Shown: positions 29,441 through 44,650 of the stretch, in pieces
Layout: each line of letters opens with the position of its first letter
How positions within the stretch are numbered: the stretch's first letter is position 1
NCBI GenBank assembly: GCA_012730045.1
Contig: JAAYBR010000138.1
Coordinates: 1-64,000 of the forward strand
DNA length: 64,000 nucleotides
From: Candidatus Hydrogenedentota bacterium
Lineage (GTDB): Bacteria; Hydrogenedentota; Hydrogenedentia; Hydrogenedentales; CAITNO01
Direction: 5' to 3'
Program-made: the position numbers and the translations under genes
Notes under the pieces: generated by a model
What the model was told of the DNA's origin: nothing
Seen by the model: the letters and a program-made list of their open reading frames with translations, nothing else
Databases searched by the model: none

Positions 29441-30541
29441 TCAGCCCGAGGGCAGCGTGCTGAGCGCCTCGTCCTCCTCAACGGGCGCGCCCTCCGGGTT
29501 GGAGTCGGCCTCAATGGTGAGGGAGGCGGCGTCCACGGTGGACTCGGGCTTCGGGAAGGCCTTTTCCAGGAGGACCGCGCCGGGCGAGGGACGCTGGACC
29601 AGCGTCTGGCGCAGGAAGGCCGCCACGCGGTCGTGGACCGCCGTGCTGCCGTCCCCGTTGACGATGCCGTGGCGGGTGCGCTGGAAAACGGTCAGCTCCT
29701 TTTCAGCGGAACCCAGCCCGGCGAAGAGCGCCGGGGCGCTGTCGGGGTGGACCGTGGGGTCGTCGGAGGCCTGCACCACCAGCGCGGGCGCGGTGACGGA
29801 AGGCAGGCAGCGGTTTGTCTCGTACATGACGTCCAGCAGTTCCCTGACCCCGGCCAGGGGGTTGCGGGTGTAGTTGATATGGGTGTTCTCGGGATGGTTG
29901 TCCACATATTCCAGCGAGGGGCGCGCCGCGCCAAACCGCTTCAGGAGCGTGTTCAGCCCCAGCAGCGACGGGGCAAGCCGGGCGGAGGAACTGCGCAGGC
30001 GCAGGGGGGAGCAGATGGTGAACACGGCGCGGACCTGTTCCGGCCGCCGCGCCGCCGCCAGCAGGGCCAGGCAGCCGCCCATGGAAAAGCCGCCCACGGC
30101 CAGGTTGTCCGTGAGCGCGCGGACCACGTCGCAGCCGCGCTCCACCGCCGCCACCCAGGCGGCCACGCTCTGGCCCGCCAGGTCCTCGGGCGCCGTGCCG
30201 TGGCCCGCCACGCGCACGCCGTACACCGCGAAGCCCGCCCCGCGCAGATGCTCGCCGAGGGCGCGCACCTCCAGCGGCGCGGCCATGTACCCGTGCACCA
30301 GCACCACCCCGCCCCGGACACGCCCCAGGGGCTTCAGGAAGAAGGGGCGGCCCACATCGGGGGGCTTGGTCAGGCCGGGACTGTAGTGGACGGCGTAGTC
30401 CTCCTCAAAGCGCCGGTCCTCCGTCTCCGCCAGCGCGCCGGAGGCGCGCCGCCGCCCCCAGGCCTCCCCCGGCCACGCGACAGCCCGACGGAACCAGTCC
30501 GCCACCCGCGCGATAAACGTGTGCAAAAACTCCGCGTCCAT
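29441..30541 (-). CDS. Alpha/beta hydrolase (monoglyceride-lipase/carboxylesterase-like)
   Basis: 366 residues. The core hydrolase domain has the oxyanion segment VVLVHGYMAAPLEVRALGEHL, nucleophile elbow GFSMGG, an acid region ASDDPTVHPDSA and His in RTRHGIVNGD. N-terminal residues 1-60 form an extra helical region, and the C-terminus has a Glu/Pro-rich tail. Substrate unknown; esterase or lipase activity on short acyl esters is the family expectation. I chose the ATG at 30541 with GAGGG 4 nt upstream. Ten further codons upstream are open but lack a better site. It stands alone beside the repeat-rich junction. Confidence 0.8.
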   Translation of the reverse strand: MDAEFLHTFIARVADWFRRAVAWPGEAWGRRRASGALAETEDRRFEEDYAVHYSPGLTKPPDVGRPFFLKPLGRVRGGVVLVHGYMAAPLEVRALGEHLRGAGFAVYGVRVAGHGTAPEDLAGQSVAAWVAAVERGCDVVRALTDNLAVGGFSMGGCLALLAAARRPEQVRAVFTICSPLRLRSSSARLAPSLLGLNTLLKRFGAARPSLEYVDNHPENTHINYTRNPLAGVRELLDVMYETNRCLPSVTAPALVVQASDDPTVHPDSAPALFAGLGSAEKELTVFQRTRHGIVNGDGSTAVHDRVAAFLRQTLVQRPSPGAVLLEKAFPKPESTVDAASLTIEADSNPEGAPVEEDEALSTLPSG

Positions 30542-30636
30542 CAGGCCCTCGGTCCCCCGCCCCCCGCGCACTGCGCCCCCAAACGAGCAAATTGTACCAC
30601 AGGCCCGGGAAATGCGGCGGCGCGCACAACGTGGAC

Positions 30637-30698
30637 GCGGCTTCCAGCCGCGTTCTTTGGGGCGATGGATACCCCGGAAGAAAGCGGCTGGAAGCCGC
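30637..30698. repeat. Nested palindrome GCGGCTTCCAGCCGC
   Basis: Two self-complementary 15-mers, GCGGCTTCCAGCCGC (30637-30651) and its reverse complement GCGGCTGGAAGCCGC (30684-30698), form an imperfect long hairpin with TTCTTTGGGG / CCCCGGAAGAA between. This gap (30542-30940) contains no gene. Confidence 0.75.
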
Positions 30699-30751
30699 TT
30701 CTACGATCTTGCCGGCGTTCCCGCCTATTGTCTCGCCGCGCGCCTCCTCGT

Positions 30752-30897
30752 GCAGACTCCGGACTCCAGACTACAGACTCCAGACTCCAGACTCTTCCCC
30801 CCTCAACTCTCCGGGCCCCCGTGCCTCCGCGTGAAAAAACCTCCCCCTCTTCTCTTCCTCCAGACTCCAGACTCCGGACTCCGGACTCCAGACTCAC
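30752..30897. repeat. 7-bp tandem repeats (CTCCAGA family), left cassette
   Basis: Degenerate 7-bp units of CAGACTC/CGGACTC type occupy about 30752-30794 and again 30859-30896. They are separated by CTCTCCGGGCCCCCGTGCC and TCCGCGTGAAAAAACC. Positions 30848-30875 are identical to 32926-32953 (28 bp). A second copy of the whole arrangement lies at 32767-32975. Confidence 0.75.
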
Positions 30898-30940
30898 CCC
30901 TCCTATTGCATTCCCACACCCCCTCCGCTATCATTCCCCC

Positions 30941-31447
30941 ATGCCCAGATGCGCCAGAACCGTCGTCCCCGGCGTGCCGCACCACGTCACCGGCAGGCCG
31001 CCCTGTCTTGGTCCCCCCTTGAGGGGGGGGAACGCATCTTCGCGGGAGCGAGATTGCTTCGCTTCGCCCGCAATGACCGCGAAAATACCTGTCATTGCGA
31101 GCGAAGCGAAGCAATCTCTTGCTCGCCAACGCCCCGGAATCCGGAACATCCCCCGGTTCGCTCACGGCGTGGCAGTTCCCCTGAAGAACGGACACTCCTG
31201 CCCCCTCGACCCCGCCGTAGGGGAAAACCCCGTCCCCCCCGGGGAAGGACGCGCCACCTTCGAAGCATGCCTCCACGAAAACCCCGGCCACCAAGCCCTC
31301 CGCGCCGTCCCCAGCACCGGACGTCCCCTCGGCAGCGAATCCTTCCTCGAGTCCATCGAGAAAACCCGCAAGAAACGCGTCCGCCCCCTCCCCATCGGCA
31401 GGCAAAAAAGCTGGCGCAAGCATCCCAACGGAGCACAAACCCCATGA
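30941..31447 (+). pseudogene. Remnant of a REP-associated tyrosine transposase (Y1/IS200-like)
   Basis: The first 19 codons read MPRCARTVVPGVPHHVTGR, the standard N-terminus of RAYT transposases. The last 50 codons contain TGRPLGSESFLESIEKT and RKKRVRPLPIGRQ, the standard C-terminus. Both are in the same frame, but the catalytic core (HUH pair and Tyr) is missing. The middle is replaced by sequence holding the palindrome at 31050-31118, whose translation gives the tell-tale IASEAKQS. The frame is still open, so this looks like internal deletion and replacement rather than frameshift. Not expected to be active. Confidence 0.75.
31050..31118. repeat. 28-bp inverted repeat (ATTGCTTCGC family)
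   Basis: Arms 31050-31077 and 31091-31118 are complementary at 27 of 28 positions, with a 13-nt centre. The core motif GTCATTGCGAGCGAAGCGAA is shared with the left-edge element at about 138-165. It lies inside the transposase remnant. Confidence 0.85.
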
Positions 31448-31509
31448 GGAGACAAATAAACGATGACTGTAAATTATTAATTGCCCTTGCCAATAAAGGA
31501 GCCAAAGAC

Positions 31510-32466
31510 ATGGAAACTCTATCGCGCGTCATTTTCTTGTGTACTTTTGTCAATACGTATGCGTGGGCTGCGTCAAGCAACCCAATCGCTATCTCTTGCC
31601 GATTGTCAAGCGACTCAATTACTTCGGGTAGCCCCGTGAGTCTATTCATAACAGCCGCAAACACAACACAGGAGTCTTGCTTAGTGAAGATCCTTGGGAA
31701 TTCCACTTTTTCTCGAGACACCTTTAATATACACATAACAAGCCAAACTGTATCACCGCAACATATTCATAGACGTAATCTCCCTATATATTCCAGCGCG
31801 TTTATGTGGATTCTTCATTCGGAAATCATGCCTGAAACGTCTGTTACCGTGGAATATCCCCTCCATCTGCAATGGGATACAAGGCTTCCCGCTGGAGTGT
31901 ACTCCATTATGCTATCTCCAATTCACATCATAGTAGTCCGCAAGTCTTCAGTTAGCAAAACAGGCGAGACACACATTGTGCTGCTTCCACCACTAACTGT
32001 AAATGTGAGGAATGGGGATGAATCATCGCTGAGAGAGAACTACAGAACCATTCTTGGAGAGGTCTGCCGAAAACAACTTGGTCCGAAGGGAAGCATTTTT
32101 CAAAAGTTGCCTTCTGGGGCGGCGACTTTACTTTGTGCGTATGGCGCGGCCGCAACTGATAGCCAGCTTGATCTGCTGTTTTCAGAGAGTGATGGATTTG
32201 CTTTTTCTCCTAGAATTGCCATATATGCATGGGAGAATATTGCCCAAAACGCTTCCTCTGAACTGGCGCGCAGAATTGTTGAAATGTCCAATAATTGTAA
32301 CTTTTGGCGGCGCGATTGTGCTTGGAAGTGGCAAGACCTCGGGTTTGTGTGGTGTATTCATAGAATGAATGAGTCGGGTTCTTCTGAGGTGAGTACGATT
32401 CTGGCTTCGCTATGCGATAAGTACCCAGAGCAATATGATTTGAAGTATCTCGAGTATGAGAATTGA
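31510..32466 (+). CDS. AT-rich exported protein of unknown function (probable recent acquisition)
   Basis: 318 residues. A strong ribosome-binding site (AAAGGAG, 8 nt spacing) precedes the ATG at 31510, and the N-terminus METLSRVIFLCTFVNTYAWA is a signal peptide. The body starts with Ig-like strand patterns (IAISCRLSSDSITSGSPVSL then FITAANTT), and a helical C-terminal part is rich in Trp, Cys and Asn. Base composition is clearly lower in GC than every neighbour, with AT-rich codons (AAT, TTT, ATA) that the surrounding genes avoid. It lies between a transposase remnant and a gene fragment, inside repeat cassettes. No family is recognised. Horizontal transfer is an inference from composition. 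Confidence 0.75.
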   Translation: METLSRVIFLCTFVNTYAWAASSNPIAISCRLSSDSITSGSPVSLFITAANTTQESCLVKILGNSTFSRDTFNIHITSQTVSPQHIHRRNLPIYSSAFMWILHSEIMPETSVTVEYPLHLQWDTRLPAGVYSIMLSPIHIIVVRKSSVSKTGETHIVLLPPLTVNVRNGDESSLRENYRTILGEVCRKQLGPKGSIFQKLPSGAATLLCAYGAAATDSQLDLLFSESDGFAFSPRIAIYAWENIAQNASSELARRIVEMSNNCNFWRRDCAWKWQDLGFVWCIHRMNESGSSEVSTILASLCDKYPEQYDLKYLEYEN

Positions 32467-32490
32467 TGCTTTCATCTGTTGCAGAGCTAG

Positions 32491-32766
32491 TTACGATATG
32501 AGTATGTCGTGGACTATGGCACGGAGCTGACGCTCTATCCCTCTCCCGTGGAGGAGGACGCCCCGTGGCGGTTCACGGGATGGCTGGGGGATGACGCCGC
32601 CCTTGTGGGAAGCGGGGGCGTGCTGGAGATGACGGATGACATCGCCTTGGGGGCGGGGTTCACGCCGGAGTGGGCGCTGGTGCTGGAGGATCCGGGCATC
32701 ACGGCGGATCCGGAACCGTATTACACGGGCCGGTATCTGGACGGGGGTGGAGGTCACGCTTATTAG
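32491..32766 (+). pseudogene. Fragment of an InlB-type repeat surface protein
   Basis: The frame opens after an in-frame TAG at 32488 and reads YEYVVDYGTELTLYPSPVEE, then PWRFTGWLGDDAALVGSG, the signature of a divergent InlB-B/Flg_new repeat (YGT.V.L.P....WRF.GW.GD). It ends after TPEWALVLEDPGITADPEP and a short tail. There is no start codon with a ribosome-binding site and no signal peptide. It is GC-rich, unlike the preceding gene. It appears to be the 3' end of a larger gene lost upstream. Confidence 0.6.
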
Positions 32767-32975
32767 ACCTCAGACTTCAGAGTTCAGACTTCAGGCTTCA
32801 GGAAGAGAGCATCAGATTCTGGGTTCCAGACTCCAGGGAGAGGGCTTCAGACTTCAGACTTCAGGCTTCAGGACGGAGGTTCCCGCCGTTCTCCGCGCCC
32901 CTGTGACTCCGTGTGAGGCCTGTCTTCTTCTCTTCCTCCAGACTCCAGACTCCCGACTCCCGACTTCCCCCGCTC
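32767..32975. repeat. 7-bp tandem repeats (CTTCAGA/CTCCAGA family), right cassette
   Basis: Clusters of CAGACTT, CAGGCTT and CAGACTC units run from 32767 to about 32875 and again at 32936-32970. They are separated by TTCTCCGCGCCCCTGTGACT and CCGTGTGAGG. This mirrors the left cassette (30752-30897), and 32926-32953 is identical to 30848-30875. No gene is visible here. Confidence 0.75.
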
Positions 32976-33074
32976 TCCGCCTCCTCCCTGCCCCGCCTTC
33001 CTCCGTCCACGGGGCGATAATCGCACCCTGCTCTCCTGCAAAAAAAAGCCGTCGTCGCCCACCAAATCATCCAC

Positions 33075-33329
33075 GTGTTCTGTGCGCGCTTTCCGTCGCG
33101 TGGAGACCACACCGTTGACCAGATGGTGCAGGCGGCGCGTTCGGGAAAGCAGAACATTGTGGAGGGCAGCAAGGCGGCGATCGCCTCCAGGGAAATGGAG
33201 ATCAAGCGGACGAATGTCGCACGGGCGAGTCTGGAGGAACTTCTTGAGGACTGTCTGGACTTCCCGCGTGTGCATGGTCTGGCGGTGCGGGAGAAGGACA
33301 GCCGCGAGGCGGCCTCCGCGAGCGCATGA
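33075..33329 (+). pseudogene. Truncated four-helix-bundle (23S rRNA-IVS-like) protein
   Basis: 84 residues from a GTG. QMVQAARSGKQNIVEGSKAA and EIKRTNVARASLEELLEDC are near-consensus for the four-helix-bundle suffix-domain family. The family's N-terminal helix is only partly present: upstream in-frame codons give LLQKKAVVAHQIIHVF back to a stop at 33018, with no ATG or ribosome-binding site. A run of eight A at about 33040 may mark a frameshift. The C-terminus also stops early. Probably a decayed copy, though a short functional protein cannot be excluded. Confidence 0.55.
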
Positions 33330-33391
33330 CCCAGGCGCGCCTCCAAAGCCGGAGACAGGGGAAAACCGACGGCCACACCCCTGCCTGACTT

Positions 33392-33427
33392 CCCATCCGT
33401 CCCATACGTCCCATAACTCCCATTTCC
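33392..33427. repeat. Four 9-bp units (CCCATACGT type)
   Basis: CCCATCCGT, CCCATACGT, CCCATAACT and CCCATTTCC follow one another just upstream of the oxidoreductase promoter. The style is the same as the other 9-bp arrays, but the unit is different. Confidence 0.6.
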
Positions 33428-33431
33428 CCCG

Positions 33432-33461
33432 CTGGCATCGCGCGCGGGAGATGGGTACAAT
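33432..33461 (+). promoter_or_regulatory. Promoter for the Gfo/Idh/MocA oxidoreductase
   Basis: CTGGCA (33432-33437), 18-nt spacer, TACAAT (33456-33461). The start codon lies 75 nt downstream of the -10. Confidence 0.5.
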
Positions 33462-33536
33462 GGACCGGGCGGCGCGTTCTGCGGCGGTTGCGGATTGCGC
33501 CATGGCCGGTTTTCCAACGTCGAAGGATGACTCCGC

Positions 33537-34811
33537 ATGAAACACACGTCTTCCGCGCCGGGATGCTCCCGGCGGCAGTTTCTGAGGCGGGCGGCGGCGG
33601 CCGTGCCGCTGTTCCCGATGGTGCTGACGAACGGGGCGCTGGGCGACGCGACGCGGCCCGGGGCGAATGACCGGATCACCATGGGCCTCATCGGCGCGGG
33701 GGGGCGCGGCGAGTACGACATGCAGGCGTTCATGGCGCAGCCGGACGTCCGGATGGTGGCGGTGTGCGACGCCAAGCGCGAGCGCCGCGAGGCGGTGCGC
33801 GGCATCGTGAACCAGGCCTACGGCAACGAGGACTGCGCCGCGTACATTGACATGATGGAGCTGCTGGCGCGCCCGGACATAGACGCGGTGGTCATCGCCA
33901 CGGGGGACAACAACCACTCTCTGGCGGCCATCATGGCGGCGCGCGCGGGCAAGGACATGTACTGCGAGAAGCCCATGAGCGTGGCCATCTCGGAGTCGCG
34001 GGCCGTGTCGGACACCATGCGCCGCCTGGGCCGGGTGTTCCAGTGCGGCACCCAGCGCCGCAGCATCGGCAATTTCCGCCTCGCGGCGGACCTGGCGCTG
34101 AGCGGCAAGCTGGGGCGGCTCAAGGAGCTGCACGCTGAGGAGGCGTCGGGGTTCAAGAACATCCATGAGACGGTGCTGCCCGCCGAACCCGAACCCCCGC
34201 GCGAGGAGCTTGACTGGAACGGCTGGCTGGGCGCGGCGCTCTGGCGGCCCTTCAACAGCAAGTACCCGCAGCGCGGCTACTGGAGCGACCACCTGGACTT
34301 CAGCGGGGGCTCCATCACGGAGTGGGGCAGCCACACGGTGGACCTGTGCCAGTGGGCGAACGGCGCCGACGACACGGGCCCCGTGGAGTTCTGGCAGGAG
34401 GGCGAGCGCTTCATCGGCCGCTACGCGAACGGCGTGAAGCTGGTGATCCGGACGGGGCTGCGCTTCGGCTCGTGCCCCGTGCGCTATGAGGGCGAGGACG
34501 GCTGGGTGGAGACCGGCGACTCCGGCGAGATCGAGATCTACCCGAAATCCCTCGCGCGCGACATGCGCTTCAAGGGGGGGTACCCCGTGGACAACCACGC
34601 GCGCACCTTCCTCGACTGCGTGCGCACGCGGCGGCAGCCCAACTCCCACGCGGAGACGGCGCACCGCTCCATCTCGGCGTGCCATGTGGCCAACATCTGC
34701 AAGCGCCTGGGCCGCCCGGTGAAGTGGGACCCCGCCACGGAGACCTTCCCGGACGACCCCGAGGCGAACCGGATGCGGGCGCGCGCGTGGCGCGAGCCGT
34801 GGCACATGTGA
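33537..34811 (+). CDS. Tat-exported Gfo/Idh/MocA-family oxidoreductase
   Basis: 424 residues. The N-terminus carries the twin-arginine motif SRRQFLRR followed by a hydrophobic stretch, so the folded NAD(P)-bound enzyme would be exported. The Rossmann domain has GLIGAGGRGEYDM, and the family lysine is in CEKPMS. The C-terminal domain has GGSITEWGSHTVDLCQWANG. Family members act on sugars, inositols and their derivatives. The substrate is not predictable. GAAGGATG lies 7 nt before the ATG. Such Tat-type members are abundant in Planctomycetes and related phyla. The HEAT-repeat gene follows by 52 nt. Confidence 0.9.
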   Translation: MKHTSSAPGCSRRQFLRRAAAAVPLFPMVLTNGALGDATRPGANDRITMGLIGAGGRGEYDMQAFMAQPDVRMVAVCDAKRERREAVRGIVNQAYGNEDCAAYIDMMELLARPDIDAVVIATGDNNHSLAAIMAARAGKDMYCEKPMSVAISESRAVSDTMRRLGRVFQCGTQRRSIGNFRLAADLALSGKLGRLKELHAEEASGFKNIHETVLPAEPEPPREELDWNGWLGAALWRPFNSKYPQRGYWSDHLDFSGGSITEWGSHTVDLCQWANGADDTGPVEFWQEGERFIGRYANGVKLVIRTGLRFGSCPVRYEGEDGWVETGDSGEIEIYPKSLARDMRFKGGYPVDNHARTFLDCVRTRRQPNSHAETAHRSISACHVANICKRLGRPVKWDPATETFPDDPEANRMRARAWREPWHM

Positions 34812-34863
34812 GTTTTTGGCGAAGGCATGTTTCCGGCCCCGGCCGGCGAGGAAGGATTTGACA

Positions 34864-36786
34864 ATGCACATTCTGTTGACCCCCCGGACCCGCGCGTTCG
34901 CCGCGCTCTGCTGCTGCCTCTGCCTGGCCGGGCTGGCCGCCGCCCAGACCTCTGAGGAGGCGCTCATCGCCGCCCTGTCCGGCGACGCCCCGTTCATGGA
35001 GAAGCAGGCCGCCTGCCGCGCCCTGCGCCAGACCGGCACCCCCGCGAGCGTGCCCGCCCTGGCGGCCCTGCTGGCCGACCCCCAGCTTTCCAACCTGGCC
35101 CGCTACGCACTGGAGCCCATGCCCTTCCCTGAGGCGGGCGCGGCGCTCCGCGGCGCGCTCGGCACGACCTCCGGCGCGCTTCAGGCCGGCGTGGCCACGT
35201 CCCTCGCCGTGCGCCGCGACGCGGAGGCCGTGGCGCCGCTGGCGGCCCTGATGGCGGGCGCCGACCCGGCGGTGGCCGGGGCGGCCACGGCGGCCCTGGG
35301 CCGCATCGCCACCAAGGACGCCCTCCAGGCGCTGCAGGACGCGGCGAAGGGTGCCGCGCCCGAACAGCGCGCCGCCCTCGGCGAGGCGCTGCTGTGCCTG
35401 GCCGACATCTGGGCGGCGGAGCAGAAGGGGGAGGCGGCGGCCGGAATCTTTGAGGGGCTGCTGGGCACCGAGTGGCCGGACCATGTCCGGCTGGGCGCCT
35501 TCCGCGGCCGCACGCTGGCCCGCCCGGGGGACGCGCCGGAGCGCCTGCTCGCCGCGGTCAACGGCGATGAGCCCCTGTTCCGCGAGTTTTCCGCGCAGAT
35601 GATGGTTGAAACGGCGGGCGACGGCGCGACGGACCGCTACGCCGCCGCGCTGGACACACTGCCCGCGGAGGCGCAGGTCCGCATGCTGCGGGGCCTTGCG
35701 GGGCGCGGAGACGTGGCCGCCCGGCCCGCCGTGCTGAAAACCCTCGACAGCGCCGACCCGGCCGTGCGCATGGAGGCCGTCCGCGCCCTCGCCGTGTTTG
35801 GCGACGCCGCCGACACCCCGCGCCTCACCGCGCTGCTCGGCGGCGGCGACGCCGTGGCCGCCGAGGCGGAGAAGAGCCTCGACACCATGGCCGGGGACGC
35901 CGTGGACCAGGCGCTCGCGGCGTTCCTGCCGCAGGCCGCCCCCGGCGTGCACGCGACAATTCTTGGCATCCTGTCCCGCCGCGCCGCGCCGCAGGGCGTG
36001 GCCCTGGCGCTCGACGGCCTGAAGCACGCCGACCCGGCGGTGCGCGCCGCGTCCCTCGGCCTGCTGGCCGAGCACGGCGGCGCGGGCGAGGTGCCCGCGT
36101 GCCTGGAGATGCTCGCGGCGGCGGCGCCCGACGCGCGCGGCGCCGTTGAGAAGACCCTCGGCTCCATCAGTGTGCGCAACGGCGACCCCGCTTTGGCGCC
36201 CGTGCTGGCCGGACTGGCCGGCCCCGACGCGGCCCTGCGGGGATCCCTCGTGCGTGTGCTGGCGCAGGCCGCGTCCCCCGCCGCGCTGAACGCCGTGGTG
36301 ACCGCCCTGGAGGACGCCGACGGGACCGTCTCCGAGGAGGCCCTGCGCGCGCTGTCCGAATGGCGCACCCTGGACGCGCTGCCCCCCCTGCGCGCGCTGG
36401 CCGCCGGCGCCGACGAGGGCCGCCACATCCTCGGCCTGCGCGGGTTCATCCGCCTGGCCCAGACGGAGTCCGACCTCGGCAAGCGCCAGACCCTGCTCGA
36501 CGACGCGGCCACGCTGGTGAAGCGCGTGGAGGAGCGGCGCATGCTGCTGGCCGCCTGGGGAAAGACCCCCACGGCCCACGCGCTGGACCAGCTGACCGCC
36601 GAACTGGCGCGGGACGAGGCGCGCGACGAGGCCGCCGCCGCGGTGATCACGCTGGCCCCTGAACTGGCGAAACAGGACGCGGCGGCGAAGGAGCGTGTGA
36701 AGGCCGCCCTCGCCCTGGTGTCCGAGCGGGCCGCCAGTGACGCGGTCCGCGAACGCGCCGCCAAGGTCTCTGCCGCCCTGCAATAA
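34864..36786 (+). CDS. Exported HEAT-repeat protein
   Basis: 640 residues. The signal peptide (MHILLTPRTRAFAALCCCLC LAGLAAA) is followed almost entirely by Ala/Leu-rich helical HEAT/armadillo-like repeats, for example VPALAALLADPQLSNLARYAL and DPAVAGAATAALGRIATKDAL. It forms a superhelical scaffold for protein binding in the periplasm. No enzymatic motif. GAGGAAGGA lies 7 nt before the ATG at 34864. Position 52 nt after the oxidoreductase suggests co-transcription. HEAT proteins often accompany exported sugar oxidoreductases or cytochromes in this group, but the partner here is unknown. Confidence 0.82.
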   Translation: MHILLTPRTRAFAALCCCLCLAGLAAAQTSEEALIAALSGDAPFMEKQAACRALRQTGTPASVPALAALLADPQLSNLARYALEPMPFPEAGAALRGALGTTSGALQAGVATSLAVRRDAEAVAPLAALMAGADPAVAGAATAALGRIATKDALQALQDAAKGAAPEQRAALGEALLCLADIWAAEQKGEAAAGIFEGLLGTEWPDHVRLGAFRGRTLARPGDAPERLLAAVNGDEPLFREFSAQMMVETAGDGATDRYAAALDTLPAEAQVRMLRGLAGRGDVAARPAVLKTLDSADPAVRMEAVRALAVFGDAADTPRLTALLGGGDAVAAEAEKSLDTMAGDAVDQALAAFLPQAAPGVHATILGILSRRAAPQGVALALDGLKHADPAVRAASLGLLAEHGGAGEVPACLEMLAAAAPDARGAVEKTLGSISVRNGDPALAPVLAGLAGPDAALRGSLVRVLAQAASPAALNAVVTALEDADGTVSEEALRALSEWRTLDALPPLRALAAGADEGRHILGLRGFIRLAQTESDLGKRQTLLDDAATLVKRVEERRMLLAAWGKTPTAHALDQLTAELARDEARDEAAAAVITLAPELAKQDAAAKERVKAALALVSERAASDAVRERAAKVSAALQ

Positions 36787-36838
36787 TCCGGTCTTGCGGG
36801 TTTTTCGCGGCGCGGGCCGCAAAAAACCGCGTAAACCA

Positions 36839-36867
36839 TTGCGAAGACGGCGCGGGAGTGCTACAAT
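36839..36867 (+). promoter_or_regulatory. Promoter for the EIIA-zinc-ribbon gene
   Basis: TTGCGA (36839-36844), 17-nt spacer, TACAAT (36862-36867), leaving a leader of about 75 nt. The preceding stretch 36797-36830 is a hairpin-forming GCGGGTTTTTCGCGGC / GCCGCAAAAAACCGC pair that may end the HEAT-gene transcript. Confidence 0.6.
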
Positions 36868-36949
36868 TGCATCCGCGCCGCGGCATGAAGGCGTGAGGTT
36901 CCGGTCGGAACGCGGCGCGGTCGGGACAACCCCAGGCAAGGAGCGAACC

Positions 36950-37780
36950 ATGCTGCTAAGTGATTACATAGACGTCAGTTGCATTGTGCCGGAGCTGGAG
37001 GCGAAGGAGAAGAAGGACGTGCTCAAGGAGATGACCCGCCTCCTGTTCGACAAGAAGAAGATCAAGGGGGTCGAGCCCGCGCTGGACCAGATCATGGCGC
37101 GCGAGACCACCGAAAGCACGGGGATCGGCCACGGACTCGCCGTGCCCCACGCGCGCGTGTCGGGCCTCAAGTCGCTGTACTGCGCGGCGGGCCGCGTGGC
37201 GGCGGGCGTGGACTTCGCGGCGGTGGACAAGAAGCCGGTCAACCTGGTCTTCCTCATCGTCTACCCGCCCACGCAGCAGACGACCTACCTGAACTTCGTG
37301 GCCACGCTGGCCAAGATGCTGCGCGTTCCGGAGAATTTCAAGGCCCTCATGGCCGCGGCCGACGAGAAGGTGTTCCTCGAGGTGCTCACGGAGATGGCGC
37401 ACAAGCTGGCGGCCCCCGAGGAGTACTACGCCAAGAAGCTCAAGGCGGACCCCGAACTGCTCCAGGCGCGCGACGCCCACGCCGACCTCATTCTGCTGGC
37501 GCGGCTCCAGCTCTGCCAGGAGATGTACGACGCGGCCCGCTCGGGCAAGAAGCAGATCAAGCAGCGGATGGAGAACATCCGCAGCCTCGTGGACGCGCGC
37601 ATCCTCAAGCACTACGACCGCCTCATGACGGCGCGCCCGCCCGCGCTGGTGCCCGTCGAGGGCGACACCTGCCAGGGCTGCTTCATGCGCCTGCCCTCCC
37701 AGTTCGCCCAGCGCGTCCGCGAGGACACGGACCACATCCACACCTGCCCGAACTGCAGCCGCTTCATCTACATCGTCTGA
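36950..37780 (+). CDS. PTS EIIA (fructose/Ntr type) domain fused to a C4 zinc ribbon
   Basis: 276 residues. Residues 1-150 are an EIIA-Fru/PtsN domain with the phosphorylatable His 67 in GIGHGLAVPHARV. A helical, likely coiled-coil linker follows (about 165-225, rich in LLARLQLCQEMYDAARSGKK). The C-terminus is a zinc ribbon with two CxxC knuckles, CQGC and CPNC, as in C4-type zinc-ribbon (CdsZ-like) proteins. No membrane or EIIB/EIIC partner is encoded nearby, so a regulatory role like EIIA-Ntr is more likely than sugar uptake. The zinc ribbon suggests binding of nucleic acid or protein. AAGGAG lies 6 nt before the ATG. It has its own promoter and terminator. Confidence 0.85.
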   Translation: MLLSDYIDVSCIVPELEAKEKKDVLKEMTRLLFDKKKIKGVEPALDQIMARETTESTGIGHGLAVPHARVSGLKSLYCAAGRVAAGVDFAAVDKKPVNLVFLIVYPPTQQTTYLNFVATLAKMLRVPENFKALMAAADEKVFLEVLTEMAHKLAAPEEYYAKKLKADPELLQARDAHADLILLARLQLCQEMYDAARSGKKQIKQRMENIRSLVDARILKHYDRLMTARPPALVPVEGDTCQGCFMRLPSQFAQRVREDTDHIHTCPNCSRFIYIV

Positions 37781-37800
37781 CCCGGTTTCCGGCGTGCGGG

Positions 37801-37825
37801 CGGGGCCGCGAAACGCCCCGTTTTT
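37801..37825 (+). terminator. Rho-independent terminator of the EIIA-zinc-ribbon gene
   Basis: CGGGGC (37801-37806) and GCCCCG (37815-37820) form the stem, with an 8-nt loop. TTTTT follows at 37821-37825. It lies 20 nt after the stop codon. Confidence 0.75.
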
Positions 37826-37853
37826 GAACGGTTTTTGGGGGCTGTGCTATGCT
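37824..37853 (+). promoter_or_regulatory. Promoter for the ABC exporter gene
   Basis: TTGAAC (37824-37829), 18-nt spacer, TATGCT (37848-37853). The -10 overlaps the ATG at 37849, which argues against that codon as translation start. Confidence 0.5.
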
Positions 37854-37878
37854 CTGCGCGCAGCCTTCCAGTGTCACC

Positions 37879-39875
<1,997 letters not shown>

Positions 39876-39879
<4 letters not shown>

Positions 39880-40580
39880 CCCCCGCCCGCGCGCTTGCCG
39901 CGGGCCTGCTGTCCGCCGCGTGCCTCCTGTCCGGCTGCGGCGGGTGCAATCCCGAACCCGCCCCGGCGCCGGCACCATCCGCCGCCGTCCCGGAAGAGGC
40001 CGCTCCGGCGATACCTGCCGGGCCGCCGGTCATCACGGCCACCGTCACCGTCAGGGACCTCGACGGTGCCCCCCTCGCGGGCATGGTCCCCATCGTCACG
40101 CGGAAGCCCAACGCCTTCGACCCGCCCGTCACCCGGGGCGACCCGACGGACGCGGCGGGCCGCAGCGTGTTTGCCTTCCCCGCCGGGGAGGCGCTGTGCC
40201 TGCGCGCGTGGGACGCGGACCTGCATTACTTCGCCAACAACTACTTCGACGTGGGCCCGGTGACCGGTCCCGTCGCCGCGGACACGCCGGTCACCATGGT
40301 GCCCGCTGCCGAGGCGCACGGCGTGCTGCTGCTGCCCGGCGGCGGTCCGGCGGCGAACACCCCCGTCTCCCTCATGCTTTCCCACCCCACGCGCGGCCCG
40401 TGGTGGCCCGCGGAGGCCGTGACCGGCGCCGATGGCGCCTTTTCGTTTCCGAACATCCCGCCCGGTGTCTTCCGGGTGGAGCTGACCGCCGCGGCGGGCG
40501 CGGCAATGCTGGAGGAGGTCACGCTGCAGCCCGGCGCGCCCAACGAGCTCGGCGCGCCCACGCTGTCGCCGGCCCCCTGA
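39876..40580 (+). CDS. Lipoprotein with carboxypeptidase-regulatory-like domains
   Basis: 234 residues. The lipobox LLSGC (Cys 21) is followed by a Pro/Ala spacer and two beta-sandwich repeats of the carboxypeptidase-regulatory or Cna-B-like kind (VTVRDLDGAPLAGMVPIVTR...; VTGADGAFSFPNIPPGVFRV). These domains serve as stalks or binding scaffolds. Its ATG overlaps the exporter stop (ATGA), so it is tightly coupled to the transporter and might be an accessory to export. That link is inferred from coupling only. Confidence 0.8.
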
Positions 40581-40593
40581 ACCGCCCGCGCCG

Positions 40594-40622
40594 TTGATTT
40601 TATGCCCCTGCGGGGGTAAAGT
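40594..40622 (+). promoter_or_regulatory. Promoter for the YfhO-like gene
   Basis: TTGATT (40594-40599), 17-nt spacer, TAAAGT (40617-40622). The spacer contains CCCCTGCGGGG, a small palindrome that may be an operator or a terminator stem for the preceding operon. Confidence 0.45.
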
Positions 40623-40666
40623 ATGCGCATGGTGGGACTTGTCCGAACGCGGGAGGTCTTTGTGCA

Positions 40667-43039
40667 ATGAGTGCTTGTCGCCGTGAGGGGGGGATGGTGC
40701 TGCTCGTGGCAGCCCTGATGGTGCTGGGCACGGCCGTGGTGTATCCGGGCATCTTCCTGCGGGGGGAGATCGCGGGGCCGGCGGACGTGCTGTGCAACCT
40801 GCGCCCCTGGGAGGCGTACGCGCCCGAGGGCTGGAACGGCAACCCCTACCACATCATGCTGGACATCTACGCCTTCTTCTCGCAGACCTACCACAATGTC
40901 CGCGAGGGCTTCCAGCGCGGGGAATGGCCCCTGTGGAACCCGTACCAGATGGCGGGCATGCCCGTGCTCGCCAACTACCAGGCATCGGTGTTCTATCCGC
41001 CCCGGATGCTGCTGCTCGTTCTCGACCTGCCCGTCGCGATGACGGTCTTTGTGCTGCTGAAGATCTGGCTGTGCGGGCTGACGGCCTATCTCGGCGGGCG
41101 GGGGCTGGCCCTGTCGCGCCGCGGCTCGCTCTTCCTGGCCGTGGCGTGGGGCTTCGCGGAATACAACCTCATCTGGGCCAACTGGCCGCTGACGGACGTG
41201 GCGGCGTGGTTCCCCATCCTGATCCTGGGGGTCGAGTGGGCGCTTCAGGGGCGCTACCGGCGGGGGCTCGCCGCGGGCGCCTTTGCGGGCGCCATGATGC
41301 TGCTGGCGGGCCATCCGGAGACCGTCTTCACGTTCGGCGTGGGGACGGGCCTCTACTTCGCCGTGCGGCTGCTGTTTCAGGCGCTCCGGCGCGGGCCCGT
41401 GGTGCGGCCCGTGCTCGTGTGCGGCGGGCTGTGGGTGATCGCGGCGGGCGTCTGCGCCGCCCAGCTCCTCCCCTTTGCGGAGTATCTGCTGAACAGCGCC
41501 ACCTTCTACGCGCGCCACGACATGGAGCACATGGTCTCCTACCCCCTCCGGTCGCTGGTGGCCGTGTTTGTGCCGCGCTGCCTGGGGGCCGAGTACCTCA
41601 AGAACTACTGGGGTCTTGTGAACGCCAACCTCGACACCATGCTGCATCCCGGCGCGGCGGTCCTGCTGCTGTCCGGCTGGGCCTTCGCGCGCGCGGCGCG
41701 GCGGCCCTCCGCGGCGGCGGACACGGACGCGGCGCCCGACCTGTGGCCCGTCCGGCTGCTGGCCCTGTTTTTCAGCGGGTTCATCTGCATGGGGCTGGCC
41801 TTCTGCATCCCCTCGCTCGACTGGGTGCACCGCCTGCCTGTGTTCGGCGCGACCCTGCGCGGGTACTACGTCGCCTTTCCCCTGTTCGCGCTGGCCCTCG
41901 CGGCCGCCCACGGGCTGGACCGGTGGACGGCGGAGCGGCGGCGGCCCACCGACCTGCTGGTCCCCCTCGCCGTGACGGCGGCCGGCTTTTCGGTGGCGGC
42001 CGGGGTGTGCGTCTTCTTCTGGAAGGTGCTGGTGCTGGAGGGCGTGTCCGGGCATGTCCTGCTGCACACCGGGGTTGCGCTGGGCCTGTTTCTGGCCGTG
42101 GCGGCGGCCCTGTCGCTCCAGTGTTTCCGGCCCATGCCCCGCACGGTGGCGGCGCTGGTGACCCTGCTCACGGCGGCCAACCTCATCTACGGCCAGTGGG
42201 GCCTCAACCCCACCTCGCGCCGGGAGGACTTCTTCCCCCGGACGAACCTCACGGACCACCTGCGCGCCAAGGGCCAGCCCTGCCGGATCGGCGTGAACGA
42301 GGGCGGGCTGCCCTCGGGCATCATGAACGTCTACAACATCCAGGACTGGCTCGGCTACGACGGGCTCTATCCCGGCCGCGTCTGGAAGGTGCAGCGGGGG
42401 CTCAAGACGGACATCTGGGAGGCCTTCGAGCCCGCCGCGGCCATCCAGTACTTTCTGAACGACCCCCGCTATCCCTCCATCATGCCCAAGGACGTCCTGG
42501 CCCGCCTGGAGCTGGAGGCGGAGGTGGACGGCGTGCAGGTGATGCGCAACCCGCGCGCCCTGCCCCATGCCCGGCTGGTCCCCCGCGCCGAGGTCGTGCC
42601 CGACCCCGACGCCGCGATCAAGCACATGAAGGCCCCCCCCTTCAACCCGGCCGAGGTGGTCTTCCTGGAGGCGGCCCCCGCCGACGGCGTGCCCCCGGCG
42701 GTGGCGGGCGATCCCGGCGCGGTGCGGGTGCTGGACTACGGCTGCCAGCGCGTGCGGCTGGAGGCCGGCGCGCGCGCGGCGTGCATGCTCGTCCTCGCCG
42801 ACGCGTGGTATCCCGGATGGACGGCCACCGTCAACGGCGCGCCCGCCGAAGTCCTCCCGGCCTACCACTGTTTCCGCGCCGTCAAGGTGCCCGCAGGCGC
42901 CTCCGAGGTCGTATTCGAGTACAAACCCTGGACCCTGCCCGCGGGGCTGGCCGTGTCCGTGGCTTCCCTGCTGGGGATCGGCGTCTTCGCGGCCTGGTCG
43001 CTGCTGCGCGCGCGGCGGCGCGCCTCAGCCGGGGGATGA
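40667..43039 (+). CDS. YfhO-family polytopic membrane protein
   Basis: 790 residues with about a dozen membrane segments and a soluble C-terminal region. Family marks include FLRGEIAGPADVL near the N-terminus, GEWPLWNPYQMAGMPVLANYQ, GHPETVFTFGVG and the C-terminal ADAWYPGWTATVNG...PAYHCFRAVKVPAG. YfhO proteins belong to the GT-C-like membrane proteins thought to glycosylate lipids or wall polymers (Bacillus YfhO acts on lipoteichoic acid). GGGAGG lies 10 nt before the ATG. The last 15 nt overlap the 3' end of the convergent glycosyltransferase gene. Confidence 0.88.
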   Translation: MSACRREGGMVLLVAALMVLGTAVVYPGIFLRGEIAGPADVLCNLRPWEAYAPEGWNGNPYHIMLDIYAFFSQTYHNVREGFQRGEWPLWNPYQMAGMPVLANYQASVFYPPRMLLLVLDLPVAMTVFVLLKIWLCGLTAYLGGRGLALSRRGSLFLAVAWGFAEYNLIWANWPLTDVAAWFPILILGVEWALQGRYRRGLAAGAFAGAMMLLAGHPETVFTFGVGTGLYFAVRLLFQALRRGPVVRPVLVCGGLWVIAAGVCAAQLLPFAEYLLNSATFYARHDMEHMVSYPLRSLVAVFVPRCLGAEYLKNYWGLVNANLDTMLHPGAAVLLLSGWAFARAARRPSAAADTDAAPDLWPVRLLALFFSGFICMGLAFCIPSLDWVHRLPVFGATLRGYYVAFPLFALALAAAHGLDRWTAERRRPTDLLVPLAVTAAGFSVAAGVCVFFWKVLVLEGVSGHVLLHTGVALGLFLAVAAALSLQCFRPMPRTVAALVTLLTAANLIYGQWGLNPTSRREDFFPRTNLTDHLRAKGQPCRIGVNEGGLPSGIMNVYNIQDWLGYDGLYPGRVWKVQRGLKTDIWEAFEPAAAIQYFLNDPRYPSIMPKDVLARLELEAEVDGVQVMRNPRALPHARLVPRAEVVPDPDAAIKHMKAPPFNPAEVVFLEAAPADGVPPAVAGDPGAVRVLDYGCQRVRLEAGARAACMLVLADAWYPGWTATVNGAPAEVLPAYHCFRAVKVPAGASEVVFEYKPWTLPAGLAVSVASLLGIGVFAAWSLLRARRRASAGG

Positions 43040-44650
43040 CGCCATCACCAGCGCGGGTTCGGCGGGGTCGCAGCGGTAGAGGTAGAGGCTCTGCATGCCG
43101 GGCAGGATGACGCGCCCCCAGGGGATGTCGTTGTCGCGCAGGGTTTGTTCGAGGGACTGGCGCTGGGGCAGGCTCTCCGGGCCCACGAAGAGCACCCACA
43201 CCCCCGTGCCCGCGCGCACGGTCTCCACCGCGCGCGAGGCGGTCTCCTCGGGGCTCAAATACCGCTCGACGGGCACCGGCAGCCCGGGGTCGTTGCAGCG
43301 CAGGATGCGCATGAGGTTCCAGTTGTCGGTCATGGCCGCGGGATGGGTCGCGGCGTGCGCGCGCAGGAGGCCCGCGGCGGACAGGTAGTCGTGGCGCATG
43401 GGCAGCGCCGCCGCCGCCGCCGCCAGCACCGCCAGCATCGCCAGGGGCGCGGCGGCGTGGGCCCAGCGCGCGGGGCCGCGCAGGCGCGCGGCGGACACCC
43501 CCACCAGCAGGCACAGGGCGGGCCACGCGTAGAGGACGTAGCGGCGCTGGAAGGCGTGGGGCTTCCAGAACTGCGCCACCAGGAACAGCGCGGCCACCGG
43601 CACGAGGAACCACGCGAGCAGCACAAGGGTCTTCCGCAGTTCCCGGCGGGACTCCTCATCGCGGCGGAGCGCGCACCGCACCGCGAAAAACAGCGCCAGC
43701 GCCAGCGTCAGCAGGTAACACCGCGCCAGGGCCAGCTCCACCGCCGGACGCAGGGGCAGCAGGTCGGCGGCCAGCGGGTGCGCCGGGTCGCGGAGGACCG
43801 TCGGCGAGTTGTACTCCGCCCAGCGCAGGTTCTCCCCGTCCGCGGAGAGCACCCCGCCGGTGAGCGTGTCGTCCCCCGCGTAGAACCCCGCCCCCGTGAC
43901 CACCGCCCAGGAATTTCCCCAGCCCGGCGGGGTCACAGGCGGGTCCGGCGCGGGCTTGATCGTGGCGACATAGCCCAGCACCGCGAGCAGGAACAGGGCG
44001 TGCGCACCGCCCCAAAAGAAGCGTTCCCGCCAGGACACGCCGCGGGCGAACAGCACGATGAGCCCCTGGGGCAGGAAGAACAGCGGCGCAAAGAGATGGC
44101 TCCAGAGCATCAGGAGGTTCGCGGCAAGGTGCGCCGCAAGCGGCGCGGGGCGGCGGGACTCCGTCCAGCGGAGCAGGGCGTCCATGGAGACCAGCGACAG
44201 AAACAGCATGAGGGCGTAGGGGCGCAGCCCCTGGCTGTGGAAAACCTGCCACGGCGACAGCGCCATCACCAGCGCCGCCACGCACCCCGCCACCATCCCG
44301 CCGAGGCGGCGGCCCAGCGAGAACACCATCACCACGGCCCCCGCGCCGAACAGGGCGGACAGCCCGCGCACCCACGCCAGGCTCCCCGGAAGCAGGCACG
44401 CCCAGAAATACTCCAGCGTGTAGTAGACCGGCACCATCTCCCAGTTGTCGCCGCGCTGGTCCCGCAGGAACTGAAGGAGGTTTGGCGCGTCCAGCCGGGC
44501 CGCCGAGAAAAAGTCGTCCATCCAGACCGACTCCGCGCCGATCCCGCGCAGGCGCAGCCCCAGCGCCAGCAGGAACAGGAAAGCCCCCGCCGCCCAGACC
44601 CGCGCCCGGCCGCCGGACAGTGTGGTGCAGCACGCCATGATGCCCCGCAT
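43025..44650 (-). CDS. ArnT/PMT-like GT-C membrane glycosyltransferase
   Basis: 541 residues with many membrane segments. The first external loop carries WMDDFFSAARLD, the acidic pair typical of GT39/ArnT/PMT enzymes that use polyprenyl-phosphate sugars. LGRRLGGMVAGCVAALVMALSPWQVFHSQGLRPY also fits this family. The C-terminal soluble part has RYLSPEETASRAVETVRAG. The start at 44650 has GGGG 9 nt upstream; 44638 is an alternative. It converges on the YfhO-like gene with a 15-nt 3' overlap. Together they suggest surface polymer or protein glycosylation. Acceptor unknown. Confidence 0.85.
   Translation of the reverse strand: MRGIMACCTTLSGGRARVWAAGAFLFLLALGLRLRGIGAESVWMDDFFSAARLDAPNLLQFLRDQRGDNWEMVPVYYTLEYFWACLLPGSLAWVRGLSALFGAGAVVMVFSLGRRLGGMVAGCVAALVMALSPWQVFHSQGLRPYALMLFLSLVSMDALLRWTESRRPAPLAAHLAANLLMLWSHLFAPLFFLPQGLIVLFARGVSWRERFFWGGAHALFLLAVLGYVATIKPAPDPPVTPPGWGNSWAVVTGAGFYAGDDTLTGGVLSADGENLRWAEYNSPTVLRDPAHPLAADLLPLRPAVELALARCYLLTLALALFFAVRCALRRDEESRRELRKTLVLLAWFLVPVAALFLVAQFWKPHAFQRRYVLYAWPALCLLVGVSAARLRGPARWAHAAAPLAMLAVLAAAAAALPMRHDYLSAAGLLRAHAATHPAAMTDNWNLMRILRCNDPGLPVPVERYLSPEETASRAVETVRAGTGVWVLFVGPESLPQRQSLEQTLRDNDIPWGRVILPGMQSLYLYRCDPAEPALVMASSPG

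Follow-up and report, generated by a model that had tools for sequence, protein, structure and literature searches.

What might a phosphocarrier domain of the phosphoenolpyruvate (PEP)-dependent phosphotransferase system (PTS) be doing on the same polypeptide as a zinc ribbon? The question is raised by one gene in a 64,000-nucleotide stretch of Candidatus Hydrogenedentota DNA (assembly GCA_012730045.1, contig JAAYBR010000138.1, positions 1 to 64,000), hereafter 'the window'. A first-pass annotation, made from the letters alone, described the product as a PtsN-type enzyme IIA (EIIA) with an intact phospho-histidine, joined through a helical linker to a CdsZ-type C4 zinc ribbon, and proposed that this arrangement connects PTS phosphorylation to a zinc-ribbon output. 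Here, we confirm both domains, trace the combination through the phylum and beyond, and argue that the fusion, with fair probability on sequence evidence, serves PTS regulation rather than transport, as a PTS-controlled switch that would bind an RNA or protein partner through its zinc ribbon.

The gene runs from an ATG at position 36950 to a stop codon at 37778–37780, and translation of this open reading frame gives a product of 276 residues, laid out as follows.

36950–37780, forward strand: the whole EIIA, linker, helical hairpin, and C4 zinc ribbon gene (open reading frame and translation, 276 amino acids; both Pfam domains above the gathering score).
36950–37405, forward strand: PTS EIIA domain of the Fru/Ntr type, residues 1–152 (PF00359; Foldseek matches to EIIA-Ntr).
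37148–37150, forward strand: His67, the predicted phospho-acceptor (invariant in 53 aligned ribbon proteins).
37286–37288, forward strand: Tyr113, where other EIIAs have their second active-site His (Tyr in all ribbon-linked copies).
37406–37474, forward strand: flexible, poorly conserved linker, residues 153–175 (predicted local distance difference test [pLDDT] below 50 at 156–173; highest column entropy of the protein).
37475–37633, forward strand: short helical hairpin, residues 176–228 (AlphaFold2 helices; no alignment to the CdsZ model before residue 193).
37643–37777, forward strand: C4 zinc ribbon (PF02591/DUF164) with C241, C244, C266, and C269 (Pfam 6.3e-12; four Cys invariant; lowest column entropy).

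Are the domains what they were taken to be? PTS_EIIA_2 (PF00359) is matched at residues 7–148 (1.2e-28; 100 bits against a cut-off of 27) and His67 is present. The first-pass annotation had staked its case on the C-terminus matching a zinc-ribbon profile, and Zn_ribbon_9 (PF02591) is indeed matched at residues 240–273 (6.3e-12; 45.8 bits against 29.1), with the two CXXC motifs of a DUF164 ribbon in place. An AlphaFold2 model built with 53 related sequences (mean pLDDT 86) has the EIIA extending to about residue 154, then a disordered stretch (156–173), and then a second folded domain, with helices at 176–195, 200–213, and 216–228 between linker and ribbon. The best Foldseek matches of this model are EIIA-Ntr structures (3urr, 1a6j, 2a0j; TMt 0.83–0.91 for the top six chains), and it also matches CT398 (4ilo, 2e-5) and HP0958 (3na7, 1.6e-4); likewise, in a phmmer search of the PDB, the first half matched EIIA-Ntr structures, and residues 196–274 matched CT398 and HP0958. 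The motif, together with the match to 4ilo and 3na7, leads us to infer that the ribbon binds zinc. The helices first noted between the domains are thus present, but they form a short hairpin (176–228) rather than the long coiled coil of CdsZ and FlgZ; judged by the model, the ribbon half is a FlgZ/CdsZ (DUF164) domain in shortened form, lacking that coiled coil.

How widely is the combination found? The window comes from Hydrogenedentota, the phylum name borne by almost every close match among named contigs, and a search for further two-domain proteins, which the annotation had recommended, found that the fusion is not unique to this genome: it occurs at full length in 60 of 68 Hydrogenedentota genomes, and those 60 copies, being on separate contigs, rule out a chance or assembly-join origin. 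Of 296 Spirochaetota genomes sampled, at least 64 also carry full-length, single-frame fusions. On the spirochaete contig L107, a protein of 278 residues has the same layout (EIIA 3.6e-27); its ribbon match (1.8e-6) lies just below the cut-off, and the four cysteines are present. Because the combination is kept across a phylum and in spirochaetes, it looks like a conserved regulatory switch.

In Krumholzibacteriota (the phylum of genome G070), the EIIA and the ribbon are encoded by separate neighbouring genes in at least 19 of 58 genomes. The two genes overlap by 4 bases in L132/L136 and L176 and are separated by 2–6 bases in L174, L175, and L187, and the short ribbon protein of L132 (116 residues) passes PF02591 (2.7e-11). 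We read this gene pair as Rosetta-stone evidence for a link between EIIA and ribbon. By eye, a NIF3/DUF34-like gene is seen near the split pair in L175 (12615–13367) and L176 (216–971); such a gene near flgZ homologues has been reported (PMC3372290). Bactofilin-like genes, also recognized by eye, lie by the split pair in L136 (5780–6463) and by a spirochaete fusion in L184 (4928–5290); this may be coincidence and, at two loci, is too rare to be used as evidence.

Among 53 EIIA domains placed in a tree, those of the Hydrogenedentota fusions make up a single clade (96/86), grouped with the main spirochaete fusion clade (91/87), and the Krumholzibacteriota pair EIIAs form another (87/92). Four spirochaete fusions are placed elsewhere, on long branches or with modest support, so more than one EIIA–ribbon fusion event is possible.

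Could the EIIA domain accept a phosphate, and could it pass one on? His67, in the active-site segment STGIGHGLAVPHAR, is the counterpart of H67 of Neisseria meningitidis IIA-Ntr and H73 of the Escherichia coli protein (PMC1201152), and the fusion combines the PF00359 match with the phospho-accepting His and conserved Arg51 of the EIIA class. His67, Arg51, Glu52, and the four ribbon cysteines are invariant in the 53 aligned proteins (Hydrogenedentota and spirochaete). Per-column entropy in this alignment is lowest in the ribbon, where residues beyond the cysteines are conserved too, and highest in the linker; the EIIA is also conserved. Position 113 is Tyr in all 123 fused loci (a count that includes repeats of the same genome) and in 13 of 13 split-pair loci; in EIIAs without a ribbon partner it is mostly His, with some Met, Ala, or Gln. 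The second His of other EIIAs is H111 of IIA-mtl, H113 of N. meningitidis IIA-Ntr, and H120 of E. coli IIA-Ntr, and H111 of IIA-mtl has been proposed to be essential for phosphate passage to IIB (PMC1201152). Since Tyr113 replaces the His proposed for transfer to IIB, the pattern suggests that ribbon-linked EIIAs end the relay and serve as terminal, regulatory phosphate acceptors.

Is there a phosphodonor? The genome (4.46 Mb in 155 contigs, 97% complete) was checked for EI and HPr, as the annotation had advised, by profile search. On contig C16, one HPr adjoins an EI; C62 carries another match to the EI C-terminal family. In the C16 cluster, the gene order is hpf, hprK, a glycosidase-like gene, ptsH, and ptsI; its hprK reaches 359 bits (TIGR00679, cut-off 240), and HPr and HPF also exceed their family cut-offs. 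With hprK, ptsH, and ptsI in the same genome, a PTS phosphodonor would be available to the EIIA fusion. Both outcomes that the annotation named as refuting it, a C-terminus outside the zinc-ribbon profile and a genome devoid of EI/HPr and any phosphodonor, are therefore contradicted. Elsewhere in this genome (G000:C70:7846–8274; L004), an EIIA domain is found at the end of an apparent membrane transporter.

The neighbours of the fusion offer a further view. The usual Hydrogenedentota order is (rsmE), hinT, aroE, (aroK), c4, fusion, and a gene for a cyclic nucleoside monophosphate (cNMP)-binding protein. In 38 of 51 loci, the last of these (PF00027, 3.6e-20) comes directly 3' of the fusion and in the same orientation, as a rule no more than 100 bases away; its product is a stand-alone domain of about 150 residues without other Pfam domains (L100:6925–7377 and 37 other loci). 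The c4 gene, upstream of the fusion in 34 of the 51 loci, encodes a small protein of about 65 residues for which a Pfam search returned no family match. It sits between aroE and the fusion (L065:2586–2786) and has a conserved motif, KVQTFIGK..GLHQMD..INEWL..IVVTSIWYE. The window's genome has this unit broken up, with rsmE, hinT, aroE, and c4 (G000:C47:50587–50778) together on C47. The fusion gene, on C138, sits between a HEAT-repeat gene directly upstream (window 34816–36786; a protein of at most 656 residues) and an ABC exporter gene. An Rfam search of positions 30000–44000 around the fusion matched no RNA family, and a consensus scan gave two candidate signals.

36839–36867, forward strand: promoter-like site (TTGCGA-17-TACAAT, extended TG; consensus scan only, 1 found, 0.1 expected).
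37818–37831, forward strand: terminator-like hairpin followed by a T run, between the fusion and the ABC exporter gene (consensus scan only, 1 found, 0.9 expected).

How would such a switch work? EI and HPr would phosphorylate His67, and the EIIA would be a terminal acceptor that reports PTS phosphorylation, i.e. the PEP/carbon state, with no phosphate handed to an EIIB. The phosphorylation state would then alter the contacts of the EIIA and, with the flexible linker as the connection, how available the mini-FlgZ/CdsZ ribbon module is; that module would bind an RNA or protein partner. Either kind of partner is possible because HP0958 binds flagellar mRNA and the CT398 ribbon takes part in protein contacts (as reported in PMC5947703). 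The adjacent cNMP-binding protein of most Hydrogenedentota would be the candidate to consider first as a second input or partner. The link from PTS input to a putative zinc-ribbon output, first proposed for this gene from the letters alone, is strengthened by the conservation, the split pair, and the invariant His-to-Tyr change.

Several observations weigh against this reading. In the window's genome, the fusion stands alone on C138 and the cNMP-binding homologue (64% identical) lies on C70 (G000:C70:14218–14625); because its gene is on another contig, the partnership is not obligatory by position. Tyr113 also occurs in a few ribbon-less EIIAs (L002, L106, L109, L110), and the equivalent His of IIA-Ntr has been doubted to join in transfer at all (PMC1201152). 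Finally, some Hydrogenedentota genomes rated 95–99% complete (G024, G031) are without the fusion gene.

What else could the ribbon be for? FlgZ and CdsZ, themselves DUF164 ribbon proteins, bind or protect the sigma-54 factor RpoN (PMC3372290; PMC5947703), and the fusion might be a PTS-controlled RpoN chaperone, with the ribbon acting on RpoN as those proteins do and the EIIA tying RpoN stability to the PTS state. RpoN accumulation needs the FlgZ cysteines, and DUF164 proteins co-occur with RpoN (PMC3372290); 60 of 68 Hydrogenedentota genomes carry rpoN, as do 63 of the 64 fusion-bearing spirochaetes listed, and the gene lies 4–5 kb from the fusion, in convergent orientation, in G007, G009, G012, and G013. 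That linkage is limited to four genomes of two genera, however, and co-occurrence does not discriminate because rpoN is nearly universal in both phyla (283 of 296 spirochaetes). Moreover, RpoN binding in CT398 is confined to the long coiled coil, as reported in PMC5947703, and the fusion, in its model, has lost most of that segment, which weakens the sigma-54 reading. A second PF02591 protein, in the window's genome a full-length CdsZ-like one, is encoded in nearly all these genomes, and in the spirochaete G068 the gene close to rpoN (about 0.8 kb away) is an ordinary ptsN, the fusion being on another contig. We consider a chaperone role unlikely.

In EIIA-Ntr proteins, the EIIA domain by itself is enough to regulate many partners. 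The ribbon might accordingly be no more than a zinc-dependent dimerization or folding element, with regulation by the EIIA surface as in classical EIIA-Ntr. Against such a structural role, the ribbon is conserved more strongly than any other part of the protein, its conservation reaches residues other than Cys, and it has a gene of its own in Krumholzibacteriota; we rate this explanation as slightly more doubtful again. That the EIIA instead feeds an EIIB of a transport PTS, the ribbon being a structural or localization element, agrees with the fructose/mannitol class of the domain (TIGR00848, 85 bits against a cut-off of 103.5) but is very improbable given that no recurring EIIB or EIIC gene was recognized among the fusion's neighbours (hinT, aroE, aroK, and the cNMP-binding gene) and that the site proposed for handing phosphate to EIIB is occupied by an invariant Tyr113.

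If the PTS-controlled switch is the right reading, what does it add? The control of gene expression by PTS phosphorylation is poorly known outside proteobacteria and firmicutes. Here, one polypeptide would name its own input (the PTS) and output (the zinc ribbon), and the Krumholzibacteriota pair provides an independent handle on the same link. DUF164 ribbons, whose function is largely unknown outside FlgZ and CdsZ, would gain a defined regulatory input, and the occurrence in spirochaetes means that the question may be approachable in cultured strains. We put forward tentatively, as a possibility rather than an expectation, that Hydrogenedentota, Spirochaetota, and Krumholzibacteriota (with the split pair) share a branch of PTS regulation not yet described: an EIIA acting as terminal acceptor would govern a dedicated module, the zinc ribbon, that binds RNA or RNA polymerase, possibly with a cyclic-nucleotide signal integrated as well.

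How does the fusion compare with known systems? The PtsN-type and CdsZ-type labels of the first-pass annotation hold as domain identities but not as family assignments: the scores fall below the NCBIfam cut-offs for both, and the CdsZ coiled coil is missing. Against the PtsN equivalogs, the protein reaches 78.1 of 138.7 bits (TIGR01419) and 52.8 of 221 (NF008145), and against FlgZ/CdsZ (NF047363) 34.5 of 275, over residues 193–274 only; the separate CdsZ-like protein of the same genome (82.9 bits over about 229 residues) is likewise below the NF047363 cut-off. By sequence and curated cut-offs, then, the fusion is best classed as an EIIA of the fructose/mannitol/Ntr class with a DUF164 ribbon, and neither a PtsN equivalog nor CdsZ. 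It resembles EIIA-Ntr/PtsN in fold, His67, Arg51, the numbering of N. meningitidis IIA-Ntr, and the availability of an HPr-type donor, and differs in having Tyr113 for the second His, a C-terminal ribbon, and no place in an rpoN operon; its neighbours across the phylum are hinT–aroE–(aroK)–c4 and the cNMP-binding gene, and rpoN lies on contig C62 in the window's genome. With FlgZ (HP0958) and CdsZ (CT398) it shares the C4 zinc ribbon with preceding helices and the structural match to 4ilo and 3na7, but the long N-terminal antiparallel coiled coil is reduced to the hairpin at 176–228, and an EIIA stands in front.

Other fusions of either domain have been described. Only 3 of 349 DUF164 proteins depart from the FlgZ layout in a published survey that mentions no PTS domain (PMC3372290); in Wolinella succinogenes WS2117, reported from one genome, the ribbon is likewise fused, but to NIF3 and not to an EIIA (PMC3372290). 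The FruB-type multiphosphoryl transfer proteins also contain a fused EIIA, but joined to HPr/EI for transport, and a zinc ribbon is not mentioned there (PMC2405797). The first-pass annotation did not recognize the design from characterized systems, and our search of open-licence PMC papers agrees with it, having found none that describes an EIIA–zinc ribbon fusion; the combination is apparently undescribed so far. What would be new here is a regulatory EIIA that carries its own dedicated output domain.
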